Below are positions 53,163 to 63,665 of a stretch of DNA of 64,000 nucleotides, piece by piece. The number at the start of each line of letters is the position of its first letter. Positions within the stretch are counted from its first letter, which is position 1. A program made the translations under genes and the position numbers. Source of the stretch: Sulfurisphaera javensis (lineage in GTDB: Archaea; Thermoproteota; Thermoprotei_A; Sulfolobales; Sulfolobaceae); NCBI RefSeq assembly GCF_041154675.1, contig NZ_AP031322.1, positions 1,859,812 through 1,923,811 of the forward strand, in the 5' to 3' direction. Below the pieces are notes generated by a model that was given only the letters and a program-made list of their open reading frames with translations, was not told where the DNA came from and did not search any database.

Positions 53163-53794
53163 GAAAGGTTATAGACTCATTAACTTATTATGGTATAAAA
53201 CTTTACAGTTATGTTAAAGAATTAAGATTGAGTTATGAAAATTTTGAAATAGAAAAGATTGTGCTTAACCCACTTTATAAGTACTCATGCCAATGTTGTG
53301 TAGATGGTTTTTATCAGCAATATTTATGGAGTAAGGGAAGGGATTATGTAATTAGACTTGGTATATACAATCCTAAATGCAGAGTTCCACCTGAAATTGA
53401 ACTAGGTAGACAATATGATCATGAGATAAGAGGAATTGTTTTACATCCAAACCATCACGGTTTTTCTCTTCTAGATAAAAAATTAGAGTACGTATACGAA
53501 TTTGCTGAATACCATGATTTACCTTTAGTTATTCATTCGCCAAATGAGAGAGAAATAAAGAAAGTGTTAGAATATAAAGTAACTATAATCGTTGTTTCTT
53601 CGTCAAATAATTTTTCACTTAGTATCCCAAACGTATATTACATTAAAGATAAACCACTCAACGAAAGAGATATTTACGGTAGTGGAAGTCCTTATAACAA
53701 CAAAGATTTGATAGAAAGCTTAAAAGAAAATTCAAGTTTTTACAATGAGAGAAGTTTTTATTATTTAGCAAAAGAATTATTTGACAAGAACTAA
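53159..53794 (+). CDS. TatD-like metal-dependent hydrolase
   Basis: 211 residues of a TIM-barrel-like fold. HPNHHGFSLLDKKLEYVYEF and LPLVIHSPNEREIKKVLEY resemble the middle metal-binding part of TatD-type amidohydrolases, but the usual N-terminal H-x-H is absent; two Cys in YSCQCCVDGFY take that place. It may be an inactive or a different hydrolase. ATG 53159 is coupled to the upstream membrane gene; a longer frame from 53048 would run inside it. It overlaps the treY end by 18 nt. Confidence 0.65.
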   Translation: MRKVIDSLTYYGIKLYSYVKELRLSYENFEIEKIVLNPLYKYSCQCCVDGFYQQYLWSKGRDYVIRLGIYNPKCRVPPEIELGRQYDHEIRGIVLHPNHHGFSLLDKKLEYVYEFAEYHDLPLVIHSPNEREIKKVLEYKVTIIVVSSSNNFSLSIPNVYYIKDKPLNERDIYGSGSPYNNKDLIESLKENSSFYNERSFYYLAKELFDKN

Positions 53795-55891
53795 AGGAAG
53801 TTTGCCTACTTTAACCTTGCCTTTCACCTTTTTATTAGTTATAACATCAGTGTACTCATCTTCAATTGTAACTTCAAAATCTCTATTCAATGTTTTTACA
53901 ATCACTAAAACCTTGTCTCCCCTCATAAATCCACATAAACCTTTAGATAGTTTCAATGGCTTATATTCTCCCTTAATAAATAAATCACCGAAGTCTCTCC
54001 TTAAAGAAAGCAAAACCTTTGTTACGTATGCCTTTATTTTTCCATTTTCAAATAATTTATCGTCAAATTTTTCTGGAATCTCTCCAAAAGTCACTGGCCT
54101 TCTATTATCTGGATCTGTCAACAGATATCTAAAGTTCTCTAAACCTTGATAAAAGTCAGCTACCCCTGGAGACATTACTTTTAAAGTTAATAGGGAAAGT
54201 GACTTTACCTTTCCCATGTCGTCAATTTTATTTTCAAATTCTAAGAAACTTTCTTTAAATTTCTGATTCTCAAACATTTTATCTATTAAACTTGTTATCT
54301 TATTTTCATAGTCTTTATTTGGGTTTATCCAATCAGTGTTAACTTTAGCCTCTCTTAATGCCTTTATCATATGTGCCTTTAATCTTTCTTTGTACTCCTC
54401 ATTAAATCCTTCGAAACTACCTACTATAGTCTGATACAGCCTATACTCATCATTTTTATCAATATTAGGATTAAGTATACTATGCCACTCGTTTACTTTT
54501 TTACTCCACTCATCCGGGATCTCTGAAATAGCACTAATTCTCATTCTCACGTCTTCACTAAATTTCGTGTCATGAGTAGAAGTAGCATTAAACGATAAAG
54601 TACCGATTCTGTTGATGTTAAATTCATGAAACTTCTCACAAGGAATTGAATAATAATGAAGATCACTTCCAACCTCATTTAACGAGATTAATCTAGAATA
54701 AATAAACAAAACTGTGTCCTCATATGATTTAGCGAATACTGCAGGCATATATTGCTGTAACTTCATGAAAGCCTTAATATTATTCTTCATTTTTTCATAT
54801 ATAGTTTGATTGCAATTCTTTACTATTATTTCATCTCTCCTGTCCTTTTCTGTGATATATGTTCTATAAACTTTCAAACATGAGAGAAATTCTTTTAGTT
54901 CCTCATAACTTACGTTTAACATTTTAGCTAATCTTTCTATGTCATGTTTAAACATTATATCAATAATTTTTTTCTTTGTTTCTATAATTAATTTATCTAA
55001 GTCAATTTTTATTATTTCCTCGTATATCTTGCTCATTTTTTCTTCGTTAGCTGTGAATAATAAGTTGGAATAATTTAGAAAATCATATCCAGTAGTCCCT
55101 TCAATGAAGTCCCACCTTAGCTTCTCGCCAATCGAAAGTATCTTTTCAACAAAAATCAGCTTCCCTTTTGATTTAGCTTTTAGTTTCCTTAAATATCCCT
55201 CTGGGTCAAATAGCCCATCTATATGATCTACCCTATAAGCATCAACATTAAATGACAAGATTTTTGAGTGTGACTCATCAAAAACCCAATCCACTTCTTG
55301 CCTTACGGCTATGAGTTCATTAACTGCGAAAAACCTCCTATAACTAGGATACTCTTTCCAATCGACAAGTTCATAATACTGGTTTTGTAAAAGTGTATTG
55401 ATATCGTTTAAATATCTCTTACTTTCATCATTAATAGGAAAAAGATTCCCGTAATAATCTATGAAAGGTTCACCATTAACATAAGTAATTTTGAAATTCT
55501 TATCACCTAAAATTGGAATCCTTATTTTCCCTTCCTCTTCATAAAAATCAAAATACTCATAATAACGACTTTTCTTTCCATTCTTTAATACATCCATTAA
55601 CCTCCAATTAGTATGATGAACAGCCATATGGTTTGGGACAATATCTTGAATTATCCCTAAGCCTTTTCTTTTTGCTTCTTCAATAAGTTTTACATATTCT
55701 TCTTCTCCCCCTAACTCATCATTTATAACACTATGATCAACAACATCATAATCATGTGTGCTTCCTGGTCTAGCCTTTAAGACTGGAGATAAATAAAGAT
55801 GAGTAATTCCAAGTTTTACAAAGTAATCAAGTTTTTCTCTTATATCTCTAAATTTCATTGGCTGTAATCTATAAGTGGAAAGTAATTGCAT
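53777..55891 (-). CDS. treY: Maltooligosyltrehalose synthase TreY
   Basis: 704 residues, GH13. STYRLQPMKFRDIREKLDYF is the typical start; GLGIIQDIVPNHMAVHH, VDAYRVDHIDGLFDP (Asp nucleophile region), KLIFVEKIL (Glu) and SATSTHDTKFSEDVRMR are the catalytic regions. It turns the reducing end of maltodextrin into a trehalose unit; TreZ then frees trehalose. ATG 55891 follows the treX stop without a gap, so the order treZ-treX-treY is a tight operon. Confidence 0.97.
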   Translation of the reverse strand: MQLLSTYRLQPMKFRDIREKLDYFVKLGITHLYLSPVLKARPGSTHDYDVVDHSVINDELGGEEEYVKLIEEAKRKGLGIIQDIVPNHMAVHHTNWRLMDVLKNGKKSRYYEYFDFYEEEGKIRIPILGDKNFKITYVNGEPFIDYYGNLFPINDESKRYLNDINTLLQNQYYELVDWKEYPSYRRFFAVNELIAVRQEVDWVFDESHSKILSFNVDAYRVDHIDGLFDPEGYLRKLKAKSKGKLIFVEKILSIGEKLRWDFIEGTTGYDFLNYSNLLFTANEEKMSKIYEEIIKIDLDKLIIETKKKIIDIMFKHDIERLAKMLNVSYEELKEFLSCLKVYRTYITEKDRRDEIIVKNCNQTIYEKMKNNIKAFMKLQQYMPAVFAKSYEDTVLFIYSRLISLNEVGSDLHYYSIPCEKFHEFNINRIGTLSFNATSTHDTKFSEDVRMRISAISEIPDEWSKKVNEWHSILNPNIDKNDEYRLYQTIVGSFEGFNEEYKERLKAHMIKALREAKVNTDWINPNKDYENKITSLIDKMFENQKFKESFLEFENKIDDMGKVKSLSLLTLKVMSPGVADFYQGLENFRYLLTDPDNRRPVTFGEIPEKFDDKLFENGKIKAYVTKVLLSLRRDFGDLFIKGEYKPLKLSKGLCGFMRGDKVLVIVKTLNRDFEVTIEDEYTDVITNKKVKGKVKVGKLPLVLVK

Positions 55892-58039
55892 TTAATACTC
55901 AATCCTCCTATAAACTAATGCTGTTCTTCCCTCAATTTCTAATTCCTTTCCTCCTTCTACAATTTTTTCATCATCTCTAATATCCCGTAGGTAAGAAGAT
56001 ACAACTAAACTCCATTTACCATGAGGAAACTTGAACTTAACATTATTCGGAGAACCATTTAGTATTATAAGAAAAGTATCATCTGCTATTCTCTCTCCTT
56101 TCTCATTTATTTCATCCATTACGCTTCCTTCAAGAATATATGCAATGAAATTTGTTGGTGATTTCCATGTTTGTTCGTCAACCTCATTACCGTCAGGTTT
56201 AAGGAAAGTTACATCCTTTAAAGGCATTCCATGAAGCTTTTTGCCTTGAAAATATCTAGCTCTCCTAAATATTGGATGTGCCCTATAAAAGTATATCATG
56301 TTTCTTACAAAATCATGAAATTTTAACTTCCTTTCATCTAAATTCCAGTTAAACCAACTTATTTCATTATCTTGACAGAAAGCGTTATTATTTCCTTTTT
56401 GAGTTCTACTTATCTCATCTCCTCCTAAAATCATTGGTGTACCTTGACTTACAAATAAAGTAATTATGAAATTTCTCTTTTGTTTTTCTCTGCAAAATAC
56501 CACATTATTGTCATTTGTATCTCCTTCAGCACCGCAGTTCCAGCTATAATTTTCATTCATTCCATCTTCATTATTAAGTCCATTAGCTTCATTATGTTTC
56601 TGATTATAACTTACTAAATCCTCTAAAGTAAATCCGTCATGGGAAGTTATATAGTTTATACTTGCAAAAGGTGTCTTGTTGTTTCCAGCGTATAGATCTG
56701 GAGAACCCATAAGCCTATTTGCTAACTCTTCATAGGGAATTGCCTCACCTCTCCAAAACCTTCTTATAATATCTCTATACTTACCGTTCCATTCAGCCCA
56801 TTGATAAGGAAAATTACCAACTTGATAACCTCCTGGTCCAACATCCCATGGTTCAGCAATTAATTTTACTTGAGAAAGAACAGGGTCTTGTTGAATAGCT
56901 ACGAAGAAAGTTGACAACATATTAACACTATATAACTGTCTAGCTAATGCTGCTGCTAAATCAAATCTAAAACCATCAACATGCATTTGTAATACCCAAT
57001 ATCGTAAACTATCTAGCACCATTTGCAAAACTCTAGGATGACTTAAGTTCAATGTATTTCCCGTACCAGTAAAATCTAGATAATATCTCTTATTCTTAGG
57101 ATCTAGCATATAGTAAGCTAAATTATCAATACCTTTAAAAGAAATAGTTGGACCTAAATGGTTTCCTTCAGCAGTGTGATTATAAACTACATCAATTATT
57201 ACTTCAATTCCAGCATTATGCAACTCATTTACCATTTCTTTAAACTCTTTCACCTGCTCTCCAAGACAGCCGGAAGAGGAATACCTACACTCTGGTGAAA
57301 AATAATTTATTGGATTATAACCCCAGTAATTTCTTAACCCTTTCTCAACAAGAAATCTTTCATCGACAAAGTGATGCACAGGCATTACCTCAACAGTGGT
57401 AATGCCTAAATCTTTTAAGTATTCGATCATTTGCTTTGACGCTAGACCTTTGTATGTACCTCTTATATTTTCCGGCAGATCCATTCTTAGCTTAGTAAAA
57501 CCCTTAACATGGACTTCATAAATAACCATATCCTTCAGCGAGATTTTTTTCCTTCTAAAGAAGTGATCATCATCCCAATCAAAATTTGGATCAATAACAA
57601 CACTCTTTGGAACAAACTCGTCATCTGGTCTTTCATCAAAGGATAAGTCTTGATTTTGATCACCTATCTTATATCCAAATACTGCATCATTCCAAACTAC
57701 ATTACCATTTATAGCCTTAGCGTAAGGATCTATCAGTACTTTGTTAGGATTAAATCTTAATCCCTCTTCTGGTTTGTATGGACCATAAACTCTGTAAGCA
57801 TAAAGTTGACCAGGCATAATACCGGGTACAAAAACATGCCATATATCTCCAGTTCTTTGTTTTACTTCTATAACCTCTTTTGGATACTTTTGATTAGTCT
57901 GTGAATATAGTAATAGTTCAACTTTTGTTGCATTTTCAGAGAATAATGAAAAGTTAACCCCGTCTTCATCTTCAATCCATGTTGCACCCAAAGGGTAAGG
58001 TTCTCCAGGTCTTAAAGGTATGTCCTTATATATAAACAT
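55892..58039 (-). CDS. treX: Glycogen debranching enzyme TreX
   Basis: 715 residues, GH13 isoamylase type. N-terminal CBM48 (GVNFSLFSENATKVELLLYS), catalytic motifs DVVYNHTAEGN, DGFRFDLAAALA (Asp), LIAEPWDVGPGGYQVG (Glu) and YITSHDGFTLEDL. It is very similar to the characterised Sulfolobus TreX, which removes alpha-1,6 branches and has glucanotransferase activity. It supplies linear chains to TreY. Close to both neighbours, same strand. Confidence 0.97.
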   Translation of the reverse strand: MFIYKDIPLRPGEPYPLGATWIEDEDGVNFSLFSENATKVELLLYSQTNQKYPKEVIEVKQRTGDIWHVFVPGIMPGQLYAYRVYGPYKPEEGLRFNPNKVLIDPYAKAINGNVVWNDAVFGYKIGDQNQDLSFDERPDDEFVPKSVVIDPNFDWDDDHFFRRKKISLKDMVIYEVHVKGFTKLRMDLPENIRGTYKGLASKQMIEYLKDLGITTVEVMPVHHFVDERFLVEKGLRNYWGYNPINYFSPECRYSSSGCLGEQVKEFKEMVNELHNAGIEVIIDVVYNHTAEGNHLGPTISFKGIDNLAYYMLDPKNKRYYLDFTGTGNTLNLSHPRVLQMVLDSLRYWVLQMHVDGFRFDLAAALARQLYSVNMLSTFFVAIQQDPVLSQVKLIAEPWDVGPGGYQVGNFPYQWAEWNGKYRDIIRRFWRGEAIPYEELANRLMGSPDLYAGNNKTPFASINYITSHDGFTLEDLVSYNQKHNEANGLNNEDGMNENYSWNCGAEGDTNDNNVVFCREKQKRNFIITLFVSQGTPMILGGDEISRTQKGNNNAFCQDNEISWFNWNLDERKLKFHDFVRNMIYFYRAHPIFRRARYFQGKKLHGMPLKDVTFLKPDGNEVDEQTWKSPTNFIAYILEGSVMDEINEKGERIADDTFLIILNGSPNNVKFKFPHGKWSLVVSSYLRDIRDDEKIVEGGKELEIEGRTALVYRRIEY

Positions 58040-58070
58040 ACTGAAACTTTAGATAAAGGAATATTTAACG

Positions 58071-59738
58071 TTATATTAAATAAACCCCAACGCCTTTATT
58101 TACAGTTATTTTTTGACCTTTTCCTACTTTTGCAGGAAAATTAGTTGTTGAAAGAATAAGATTTCCTTTAGCTGGTGAAACTAACTCCGTGTTTGCAAAG
58201 GAAACTAAAAGCATTATTTTCTCCATAACTATTGATAACCAGTTTTCCCCTTTATTCACTTTTACATTCCTAGAACACTTATTACCAAACTCCTTCCTTA
58301 TATTAATTAATTTCTTATAATATTCTAATATTTCAATATCTATATTCCAACTCAACTTACTCTTTTCAAAAGCTTCATCAGATTGAGGATCTATAGTTTG
58401 CCCATTCTCCCTAAGTCTTCCTTCTCTTACTCCTTTTATTAAAGTCGGGTCAGAAAAATCTGAAAAGAAAAGAAAAGGGTTCTTTTCATAATACTCTTCA
58501 CCCATAAAAATCATGGGAATGAAGGGTGATAAAATATATAGAGCTGAGGCAATTTTATAACTTTCCTTGTCTACTAACAATGAAATCCTTTCTCCGTTTC
58601 CTCTGTTTCCAACTTGATCATGATTTTGAATATAAACTACAAATTTACAAGCATCTAAGTTTCCCACTGGCATACCATGAGTCTTTTTCCTAAAATTAGA
58701 ATATTTACCATCATAGACAAAAACATCCGTATATGCTTTCACTATATCATCAAGACTTCCGTAATCACTATAATATCCATTCTTTTCTCCAGTTATATAG
58801 GCATGAATTGAGTGGTGAAAATCATCAACCCATTGCGCATCAATATTATATCCACACTCCTTCCTAATGATTTTAGGATCATTAAGATCGCTTTCAGCTA
58901 TTACAAACTTTCCTAAACTATGGGCTATTTCACTAATTTCCTCTAGTATATGCTTTGGAGAGAAATCATATATTGCATGAACAGCATCCAGTCTTAGGCC
59001 ATCTACGTGAAAAATCTCTAGCCAGAATCTGACATTTTCTAGTACAAATTTCCTAACTTCATCACTATAAGCGTCATCAAAATTAAACGTCAAACCCCAT
59101 GGTGTTTTATATCTTGAGGAAAAATAAGGGCCTAATATTGTCATATAATTTCCTTCTGGACCTACATGGTTGTAAACTACATCTAAAATTACAGATAGTC
59201 CTCTCTTATGAGCTTCATCAGTAAATTTCATGAACGCATAAGGGCCTCCGTAAGAGTTTTGGACAGCATATAAGTAAACTCCATCATATCCCCAGTCCTT
59301 TTTGCCCGGGAATTGAAAAACTGGCATAACTTCTACTGCTGTTACTCCTAAATCAACTAAATAATCAAATTTTTCTATAGCAGAATAAAAAGTTCCTTCT
59401 TTTGTAAAAGTTCCAACATGAATCTCATAAATAATCAAATTTTTAGGGTCAATCTTTACGTCTTTACTATCCCAATTATACTGCAGAGAAACTAATTGAG
59501 ATTTTCCATGAACGCCTTCTGGCTGATATCTCGATGCTGGATCTGGAATTTCTCCTTTGTTGGTAAGAAAGGAATATTTGTCTCCTTCTTTAGCTTTAAC
59601 TGTAGCAGTAAAGTAACCTTTTTCGTCTTTTTCCATTTTATATTTGTTACCATTTATCAAAAGGAACACTTCTGACTGATAAGGAGCCCAAAGAGTAAAC
59701 TCTACTTCTTCATTATCCAAAAATTTAGGTCCGAACAT
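58071..59738 (-). CDS. treZ: Maltooligosyltrehalose trehalohydrolase TreZ
   Basis: 555 residues, GH13. N-terminal CBM48-like domain ([20 protein letters not shown]), GWDYDGV-like [46 protein letters not shown] (Asp), [10 protein letters not shown] (Glu) and [11 protein letters not shown]. It cuts trehalose from maltooligosyltrehalose. The start overlaps the end of the PAP2-like gene by 14 nt, so it joins the upstream membrane gene and CARF-PIN gene in one run. Confidence 0.97.
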
Positions 59739-60297
59739 AAAATAAAGTATGAAACATAAAATATAATTCTATATACGAGAGAGGAGCTAAAAACCATGCT
59801 GAAATTATTTGAGAAAAAGTGTGTGCTTTTAATTTATATCTAGATATCGAAATAAGTACACCAAAGAGATAAAGAGGGATATAATAAATGCCTAGAATAA
59901 AGACAAGTAAAGTTATTCCACCAACAGTAGTACTTACATGGACGCTAATTTTAAACTTCAGTGTTATCAGTAGAATTATTATAGTATTTATAATGTAAAT
60001 TAGAAGAATTTTAAACAAAACATCCTCTTTTACTAAAATTAGTCCAATTATGTATGAAAATATTGAAAGAGAAATGGGAATAAACCTCTCCTCTTTTCTG
60101 CTAACATAAATGTCAGTAACCTTTTTTGCTTTTACCATAAAAAATACAATAAGAAAGGGAATTATTGAATAAAAAATTGTAATTATCAGAAGAGAATAAT
60201 ATTCTAAGTGCAAGAAAGTTACTGTAATAGAAAACACGATAAAAGTTACTACTGAAGGATGAAATAAAGCTGATAGAACTTCATGTAGTTTTTTCAA
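59725..60297 (-). CDS. PAP2-like membrane protein, 190 aa
   Basis: About six hydrophobic segments. [10 protein letters not shown] resembles PAP2 motif 1 (K-x6-RP), HVSTTVGG the S/T-G-H region, and [12 protein letters not shown] the SR-x5-H motif with the following Asp changed to Gln. So a lipid phosphatase relative with an altered active site is likely; activity is uncertain. The ATG overlaps the CARF-PIN stop (60297-60294, ATGA type) and its end overlaps treZ, placing it in the middle of an operon-like run. Confidence 0.6.
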
Positions 60298-61562
60298 TTC
60301 TCTCCCTTCAGATAATTTTCAACTAAGCTAATAAAATATGGGTAATTGTATTTCTCTTCTTGATTAATTAAGGATAATTTATCTTTTCCATACATTCTTT
60401 CTCTCTTTATAGTGGCATAGACTTTACCATTGATTTCTAAGTCTATATCAGCAAAATATCTTAAACAATAAATTAATTCCTCAACACTTCCTTTACCATT
60501 CCTAAGTTCTTTTAATAATACAGTTTTAATCTTTTGATGAGCAGAGTTATAAACACCTTGATCACAAGTTAGTAAAATCACATTTGGATAATGTCCTTTT
60601 AAATCCATTGCCTCTTTAATTAATTTAATATCAGATCCTAGTTTTTTATTAACATACCCTGCTGGAATTGTATTATGGATTTTCTTAAAACTATCCATTC
60701 CTAGATTACCTATATATAACTTTTTATCATTTTTCTGAGTAGTATTAAGCATATTTTCTAGCTCAGAATAAGTTGATGAAGAAAAAAGAATTTGATTCCC
60801 ATTCTTTATGAGATTACTCAATCGATTACCTAGATTAATATAAACGTTTACATCTGCTATAAAGTAATTATCTTTATCACTTGCTAGTCTTTTTATATTA
60901 TCTTCTGCCTCATATACAAAAAAGCCAGACCTAACTAAGCATGTCTTATATTCATTAGCAAGTTGAGAAATCTCCGAAAGTTTATTCCCATCGTAAGTTA
61001 AGGAAATGCTTCCTTCTTCACTTTTTAAATTTAAAACAATTTCATTACCTAAAAGCAAGTAAAGATTTAGAAGAGCCCTTATCCCTTCTCTTCCTAATTC
61101 CACATTTTTATTACCACCTTTGATGGTTTGCGGAGGATCATAAGAAATCAAGGAACTATTCCTAAGATCATAAATTCTCACATCAGTAAAAGGAGCATAA
61201 CCAAATATCCTATATCCTTCCTCCTCTTTCTCTAGATAAATATACCTAATTTCATGAGCATTTGAATAAGTATATACAGCTAAAGCCATATATTTTCTTC
61301 CTGGCGTAATATCAGCAACATCTATTTTTAAGTCCTTCAACTTATTTCTCCATTCTTCTATTCCTCTACCCATAATCTTTTCTGTTACTTTAGCATTTAT
61401 CCCTAAAACTTTCAGTATCTCTGCAATTTTACTGTAATCCCTTTTTGATTGTTCTTCGGCTAATATCACAATTTCATCTGGTTTAAGTCCAGTAAAGACT
61501 TCAGTTAAAATAGCATTAGTAGTTGTCACAAGCTTATTAGAGCCTAAGGTAGCTAATATCAT
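60294..61562 (-). CDS. CARF-PIN protein: putative cOA-responsive ribonuclease
   Basis: About 422 residues. The N-terminal half has the CARF pattern: start MILATLGSNKLVTTTNAIL and later DITPGRKYMALAVYTY, matching the (S/T)GGRK loop. The C-terminal part is a PIN nuclease: NYFIADVNVYINLGNRLSNL (first Asp), FSSSTYSELENML (Glu), LGSDIKLIKEAMDL (Asp) and VILLTCDQGVYNSA (Asp), a full acidic quartet. CARF domains bind cyclic oligoadenylate from type III CRISPR systems. ATG 61562 is chosen: TATA GTTTTATATTTTG centred near 61588 is at leaderless distance, and the longer frame from 61679 runs through the divergent gene. The stop overlaps the PAP2-like gene. Confidence 0.82.
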   Translation of the reverse strand: MILATLGSNKLVTTTNAILTEVFTGLKPDEIVILAEEQSKRDYSKIAEILKVLGINAKVTEKIMGRGIEEWRNKLKDLKIDVADITPGRKYMALAVYTYSNAHEIRYIYLEKEEEGYRIFGYAPFTDVRIYDLRNSSLISYDPPQTIKGGNKNVELGREGIRALLNLYLLLGNEIVLNLKSEEGSISLTYDGNKLSEISQLANEYKTCLVRSGFFVYEAEDNIKRLASDKDNYFIADVNVYINLGNRLSNLIKNGNQILFSSSTYSELENMLNTTQKNDKKLYIGNLGMDSFKKIHNTIPAGYVNKKLGSDIKLIKEAMDLKGHYPNVILLTCDQGVYNSAHQKIKTVLLKELRNGKGSVEELIYCLRYFADIDLEINGKVYATIKRERMYGKDKLSLINQEEKYNYPYFISLVENYLKGEN

Positions 61563-61596: not shown

Positions 61597-61971
61597 ATGA
61601 AGTTTGAATACGCTGAAGATGTTAGAAAATTAGCCGAAATAATAAATGAAAAATTTAATTTAGGATTAGATTTAACCAAAGTGATATTTATAAGAAGTCA
61701 AGGATCAAAAACTAGAGCAATCGCCAGAACCTTAATGCTACCTTCACAATGGAGATTTGTCTTATCTCCAAACATACTTTACATAATTGAAGTAATTTCA
61801 GAAAAATATGATAAATTGTCTTGTGAAGAAAAGGCTTACGTCACCCTTCACGAACTAACACACATACCAAGAACTATGAAAGGAGGATTAAGAAACCATT
61901 CGCACTCTCAATTCAAAAAGTTGAAGAAGCCACCTTATAAAGAGCTAAAAGAAATATGCAAACATATTTAA
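61597..61971 (+). CDS. Putative metallopeptidase-like protein
   Basis: 124 residues. VTLHELTHIPRTMKGGLRNH has H-E-x2-H and a third His 13 residues on (R-N-H-S-H), the arrangement of a small archaeal family described as putative metallopeptidases. It has no signal peptide and would act in the cytoplasm. Its start is 35 nt from the CARF-PIN start, divergent, with TATATTAAAC near 61563-61573 at leaderless distance. Substrate unknown. Confidence 0.7.
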   Translation: MKFEYAEDVRKLAEIINEKFNLGLDLTKVIFIRSQGSKTRAIARTLMLPSQWRFVLSPNILYIIEVISEKYDKLSCEEKAYVTLHELTHIPRTMKGGLRNHSHSQFKKLKKPPYKELKEICKHI

Positions 61972-63084: not shown

Positions 63085-63113
63085 TTTTTATGCCTCTGCT
63101 CAATCTTGATTAT

Positions 63114-63665
63114 ATGGTAAAACTTATAGCTACACTAGGCACTAGTCCTGGAGGCGTATTTGAGACCTACACAAACTTAATCAACGGGAACTATGAAAGT
63201 GATAATCCAAGTAAAGTTGAAATAGATACAATCTATCTAATAAGAACTTTAGATAAAGACGTTGAATTTGCCTTTAAATTAGTAAAAGCATTATTCATTT
63301 GTCAAAAGATTCCCTCAGAAGTTGTAGAAATTAAGATAAATATCTCTGACATAACTAATAAGCAAGAGTATGAACAGTTCAAGTCTCAGATATTTCAAAA
63401 AATAGGTAAAGGAGATTTTGTTGATTTTACAGGTGGAAGAAAAGCTATGTCGGTAGCTGCAGCAATTCAAGCTCTAAAAAGAGATGCTTATCTAGTTACT
63501 ACAATTATTCCACAGTCAGAATACAACAGAATTCAAAATAAATTGAAAGAGCTAAAAAATAAAGAGAATGAAATAAATGATATATTAGCAAATAAAAACC
63601 TTAGTTTATGCCCTGAATTAAACGAGCTAATAGTTCATGGAGCAAGAACAATACTACTCAGCTAA
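63114..63665 (+). CDS. CARF ring nuclease, Crn1-like (cyclic tetra-adenylate)
   Basis: 183 residues. VKLIATLGTSPGGVFETYTN and FVDFTGGRKAMSVAAAIQAL are the CARF nucleotide-binding loops, in the same order and spacing as the Sulfolobus ring nuclease Sso2081 (Crn1), which cleaves cA4 and switches off the type III CRISPR signal. ATG 63114 is chosen because MVKLIATLGTSPGG is the family start; ATG 63090 would add eight residues. No effector domain is fused. It follows mtnA by 30 nt and overlaps the convergent HtrA-like gene by 12 nt. Confidence 0.88.
   Translation: MVKLIATLGTSPGGVFETYTNLINGNYESDNPSKVEIDTIYLIRTLDKDVEFAFKLVKALFICQKIPSEVVEIKINISDITNKQEYEQFKSQIFQKIGKGDFVDFTGGRKAMSVAAAIQALKRDAYLVTTIIPQSEYNRIQNKLKELKNKENEINDILANKNLSLCPELNELIVHGARTILLS

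Follow-up and report, generated by a model that had tools for sequence, protein, structure and literature searches.

The locus examined here raises the question of whether Sulfurisphaera javensis encodes a PIN nuclease whose activity is coupled to the sensing of a cyclic oligoadenylate and, if so, whether this protein belongs to type III CRISPR signaling. The earlier note on the window (the whole 64,000-nucleotide stretch of DNA analyzed here) had read, at positions 60294-61562, a CARF domain fused to an apparently intact PIN nuclease, and had guessed that the protein would be gated by cyclic oligoadenylates.

The CARF-PIN gene and its solved ortholog

The gene is real and was correctly read: a single ATG-started frame of 422 aa occupies 60294..61562 of the window on the minus strand, which had gone unstated, from the ATG at 61562 to the stop codon at 60296-60294. 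An upstream TTG start at 61679, which would give a 461-aa frame, was rejected because the homologs and the PDB entry 9JXW begin at the ATG, at the MILATLGS position. The family to which the protein belongs has already been catalogued. The PADLOC profile PDLC01982 (CARF_m3--CARF_PIN) matches it over the full length (E=4.3e-137; residues 1-418 against positions 1-390 of 392), and a second PADLOC CARF_PIN profile, PDLC01068, matches at E=3.4e-51. Pfam and NCBIfam gave no match above the cut-off for the single protein, so that Pfam alone would miss both domains. The listing of CARF-PIN fusions in computational surveys, which the earlier note had mentioned, is indeed on record: two CARF families with a PIN domain were listed in 2014 (PMC4012209), and the 2025 classification of CRISPR systems includes PIN among the effectors activated by cyclic oligoadenylates (PMC12669027).

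An AlphaFold monomer prediction, with a seven-sequence alignment as input, yielded a model with a mean pLDDT of 88.7 and a pTM of 0.87. The top Foldseek match of this model is 9JXX (E=5.8e-42, TM 0.86, 36% identity), followed by 9JXW and then by Can2, Card1, Cad1 and the ring nucleases Sis0455 and Sso2081. The title of 9JXX, an entry from Sulfolobus islandicus released on 2025-07-23, reads 'Crystal structure of SiRe_0806 in complex with cA4'; 9JXW is the apo form. Sequence searches of the PDB lead to the same protein: phmmer matches 9jxw to residues 1-416 (E=2.1e-72), and a profile built from 21 divergent homologs (34-57% identity), which also served as the conservation set throughout, retrieves 9JXW/9JXX only (E=1.3e-164), plus the PIN protein 1o4w for profile positions 218-343 (E=0.0017). 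The gene is an ortholog of SiRe_0806, which, according to the PDB title, binds cA4. Hence the proposed architecture is borne out by the PADLOC profiles, conservation, the AlphaFold model and Foldseek, and the guess of cyclic-oligoadenylate gating gains support from the ortholog crystallized with cA4. The accompanying remark that no thorough biochemical study was known has been overtaken, structurally at least, by the apo and cA4-bound SiRe_0806 structures of July 2025.

Distribution and genomic neighborhoods

CARF-PIN is present in 28 of the 31 Sulfolobaceae genomes and seems to belong to the core gene set of this family; it is sparse across the rest of the order, and beyond the order the phylum sample yielded nothing stronger than weak or partial matches. 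When genome contigs were scanned, the single CARF-PIN sequence gave 0 matches and the profile six. Searches of viral contigs and of phage and plasmid collections recovered no relatives, nor did viral proteins searched by fold include a significant match, and on these grounds spread by viruses or plasmids was rejected.

The host genome (2.57 Mb, one contig) encodes a III-B Cas10 with GGDD, a second, HD-GGDD Cas10, and Csx1 (L066). With two GGDD-containing, cyclase-competent Cas10 proteins, a source of the messenger exists; the nearest Cas10 gene lies 470 kb from CARF-PIN. One of the two copies of the Crn1 ring nuclease in this genome is located 1.5 kb from CARF-PIN (63090..63665, plus strand; likely start ATG 63114), as identified by NF040581 (cas_Crn1, E=4.6e-66) and by the 7z55 and Sso2081 structures, and its motif I (GTS) and motif II (GGRK) are both intact. 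The gene order treY-treX-treZ-PAP2-CARF-PIN / metallopeptidase-MtnA-Crn1 is common to four species of the genus. In the window, treY, treX, treZ and a PAP2-like gene (53777-60297) lie downstream of CARF-PIN in the same direction with little or no spacing, and CARF-PIN, the PAP2-like gene and treZ/treX/treY possibly form one transcript. A small divergent gene (61597-61971), 34 bp from CARF-PIN, encodes a 'putative phage metallopeptidase' domain (PF18894, E=1.1e-22).

Outside the genus, the neighbors of CARF-PIN include Cas10, RAMP genes and CRISPR repeats (G102), an array (G150), an array with Cas6 and Crn1 (G084), Cas6-Csa3-Cas4-Cas1 (G081), and Cas3 genes (G022). Chance would place CARF-PIN within 100 kb of Crn1 in 2.8 of 23 genomes, and this arrangement is seen in 13; for proximity to Cas10, the corresponding numbers are 2.6 expected and 8 observed among 21 genomes. 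Because the genomes are related, neither count is made up of independent observations.

Five genomes carry CARF-PIN without a detectable Cas10: G084 and G114, which are single contigs, and G011, G147 and G154. Four models (TIGR02577, TIGR02578, PF22335 and a Sulfolobaceae Cas10 alignment) found no Cas10 in these five genomes and did find it in positive-control genomes; the association of CARF-PIN with type III systems is therefore not a strict one. Crn1 is kept together with CARF-PIN in G084 (locus L060), as well as in G114 and G011 (loci L059 and L043), where the PIN acids are intact and no Cas1 match was found either; G114 retains one RAMP-family gene, and G011 consists of 20 contigs, which makes gene absence weaker evidence. 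The simplest account of these genomes is recent loss of the type III system.

The persistence of CARF-PIN and Crn1 in two genomes with no Cas10 or Cas1 match (G114 and G011), the near-universal presence of CARF-PIN in the family, and its position as the first gene of the trehalose run in the genus would also suit a regulator of host physiology that acts outside CRISPR immunity and responds to cA4 or another small nucleotide, for example through cleavage of particular host RNAs under stress. We consider such a role improbable: the ortholog binds cA4, for which Cas10 is, to our knowledge, the only archaeal source; the neighborhood in several genera is a CRISPR one; and the loss of Cas10 may be recent, with absence from the fragmented G011 assembly counting for less. 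We likewise see only a slim chance that, in G114 and G011, CARF-PIN and Crn1 constitute a signaling module that outlives type III CRISPR and responds to a nucleotide, cA4 or another, that an enzyme other than Cas10 produces. Nevertheless, the persistence of the two genes where Cas10 is undetected raises the question of which signal is read there.

Several irregular forms of the gene were encountered in the course of this survey. In G119, a member of the same genus, a C/A run immediately after the CARF half differs by one base and splits CARF-PIN into two frames (L041:6396-7635), which could reflect a natural frameshift, a programmed slip or a sequencing error. G136 carries an intact copy and, at another site near CRISPR-like repeats, a second copy broken by stops and an insertion (L076:8560-9930). 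In G083, a single 605-aa frame (contig 1, around 964891-966657; L027 / L109) combines a related CARF domain, a truncated glutamine-amidotransferase remnant and GMP synthetase; it holds the sole GMP_synt_C match of that genome and could be a fusion of CARF with GuaA or else a chimera that arose by deletion or in assembly.

CARF and PIN halves of the protein

The CARF domain spans residues 1 to about 140 (61143..61562; this and all following features are on the minus strand). In the AlphaFold monomer model, strands and helices alternate in a Rossmann-like manner (E2-6, H11-22, E30-35, H44-51, E58-63, H68-75, E82-85, H90-99, E104-110), and Foldseek matches this half to Can2, Card1, Sis0455 and Sso2081, so that, at the level of the predicted structure, the CARF fold is confirmed. 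Both loops that had been singled out earlier are present, ATLGSNK as residues 4-10 and DITPGRK as residues 84-90. The former includes motif I, G7-S8-N9-K10 (61533..61544), at the site of the GTS motif of Sso2081 (PMC10018336), and the latter is motif II, D84-I-T86-P-G88-R89-K90 (61293..61313), which equals the GRK motif II of Sso2081. Residues S8, K10, D84, T86, P87, R89, K90, R106 and Y117 are invariant in the 21 homologs. The cA4-cleaving Sso2081 combines motif I GTS with motif II GRK, whereas the non-cleaving Can2 and Card1 are devoid of GTS (PMC10018336). CARF-PIN possesses only the second member of this ring-nuclease pair: DxTPGRK is kept and GS(N/D)K takes the place of GTS. Given the absence of GTS, the motifs suggest a CARF domain that binds cA4 and probably does not cut it. 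The model and the alignment further delineate a connector (residues 141-212, 60927..61142) with a helix at 158-171, strands within 175-190, a helix at 206-212 and an invariant C208.

The PIN nuclease domain, supported by the matches to 1o4w and to Pfam PIN_4, encompasses residues about 213-357 (60492..60926); PIN_4 matches 7 of the 21 homologs, with a best E-value of 0.0014. The four acids originally reported as intact are all present and invariant in the 21 homologs, namely D237 (60852..60854, in IADVNVYI), E267 (60762..60764, in SSTYSELENML), D311 (60630..60632, in LGSDIKLI) and D334 (60561..60563, in LLTCDQGV). Among the 27 D/E positions in residues 200-422, exactly five are invariant, these four and E317, a fifth acid that had not been named; judged from the alignment, the conservation of the PIN acids exceeds chance. 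Non-acidic invariants of the C-terminal half include N239, K322 and T332. On the predicted fold, D237 follows the strand 232-236, E267 lies inside the helix 262-274, D311 starts the helix 310-322, and D334 follows the strand 327-332, and the four acids appear to occupy the canonical PIN positions in this secondary structure. The protein ends in a small domain or tail (residues 358-422, 60297..60491) with an invariant C366, a beta hairpin and a terminal helix. Some PIN domains cut DNA, and some are inactive. A primary role of CARF-PIN as ring nuclease or cA4 sink, in which the protein would bind and destroy cA4 and the PIN domain would serve only oligomerization or a minor activity, would fit the retained GRK motif and the clustering with Crn1, but is highly unlikely given that GS(N/D)K replaces GTS, the signature linked to cA4 cleavage (PMC10018336), that the four invariant acids argue for a working nuclease, and that the genome already encodes two copies of Crn1.

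Proposed mechanism and relation to known systems

Taken together, the CARF_PIN profiles, the SiRe_0806 match, the invariant PIN acids, the 1o4w match and the context of Cas10, Crn1 and cas genes make it very likely that CARF-PIN, an ortholog of SiRe_0806, acts in type III CRISPR signaling as a PIN nuclease effector that depends on metal and is gated by cA4. Binding of cA4 is known for the ortholog; nuclease activity and activation by cyclic oligoadenylates are what we infer for this protein. Under this proposal, either of the two Cas10 complexes would make cyclic tetra-adenylate upon meeting invader RNA, and the ligand would settle in the pocket of a putative CARF dimer, where S8/K10 and the DxTPGRK loop probably form the lining. 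The connector would relay the cA4-induced change to the PIN domains and thereby activate them, with D237, E267, D311 and D334 holding Mg2+ or Mn2+ and single-stranded or specific RNA being cut. The outcome could be a growth stop or the destruction of viral RNA, lasting until cA4 is hydrolyzed by Crn1, the activity of which is known for orthologs and which, encoded 1.5 kb away, would be the probable off-switch of the signal. With the ortholog solved in complex with cA4, substrate choice and activation become directly testable in a tractable genus.

With respect to known systems, the PADLOC family CARF_m3 CARF_PIN matches along the full length of the profile, and we found no difference from it. 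SiRe_0806 (9JXW, 9JXX) has the same length and end-to-end domains, conserved PIN acids and CARF motifs, and a TM of 0.86; it differs in sequence (about 36-40% identity) and in neighborhood, which here consists of trehalose genes and Crn1. Can2 and Card1 (7bdv, 6wxw) provide the closest CARF folds after SiRe_0806 and similarly lack GTS (PMC10018336), but their effector is a PD-(D/E)xK restriction-like nuclease instead of PIN. Crn1 (Sso2081, Sis0455) shares the CARF fold and the GRK motif II with CARF-PIN, but lacks an effector domain, carries GTS as motif I and cleaves cA4. Finally, Csx1/Csm6, of which Csx1 is also encoded in the host genome, resemble CARF-PIN in the fusion of a CARF sensor to an RNase; their HEPN domain, however, is metal-independent and relies on R-x4-6-H, whereas the PIN domain presents an acidic metal site. 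CARF-PIN would stand beside the extensively studied CARF-HEPN RNases as their metal-dependent equivalent.
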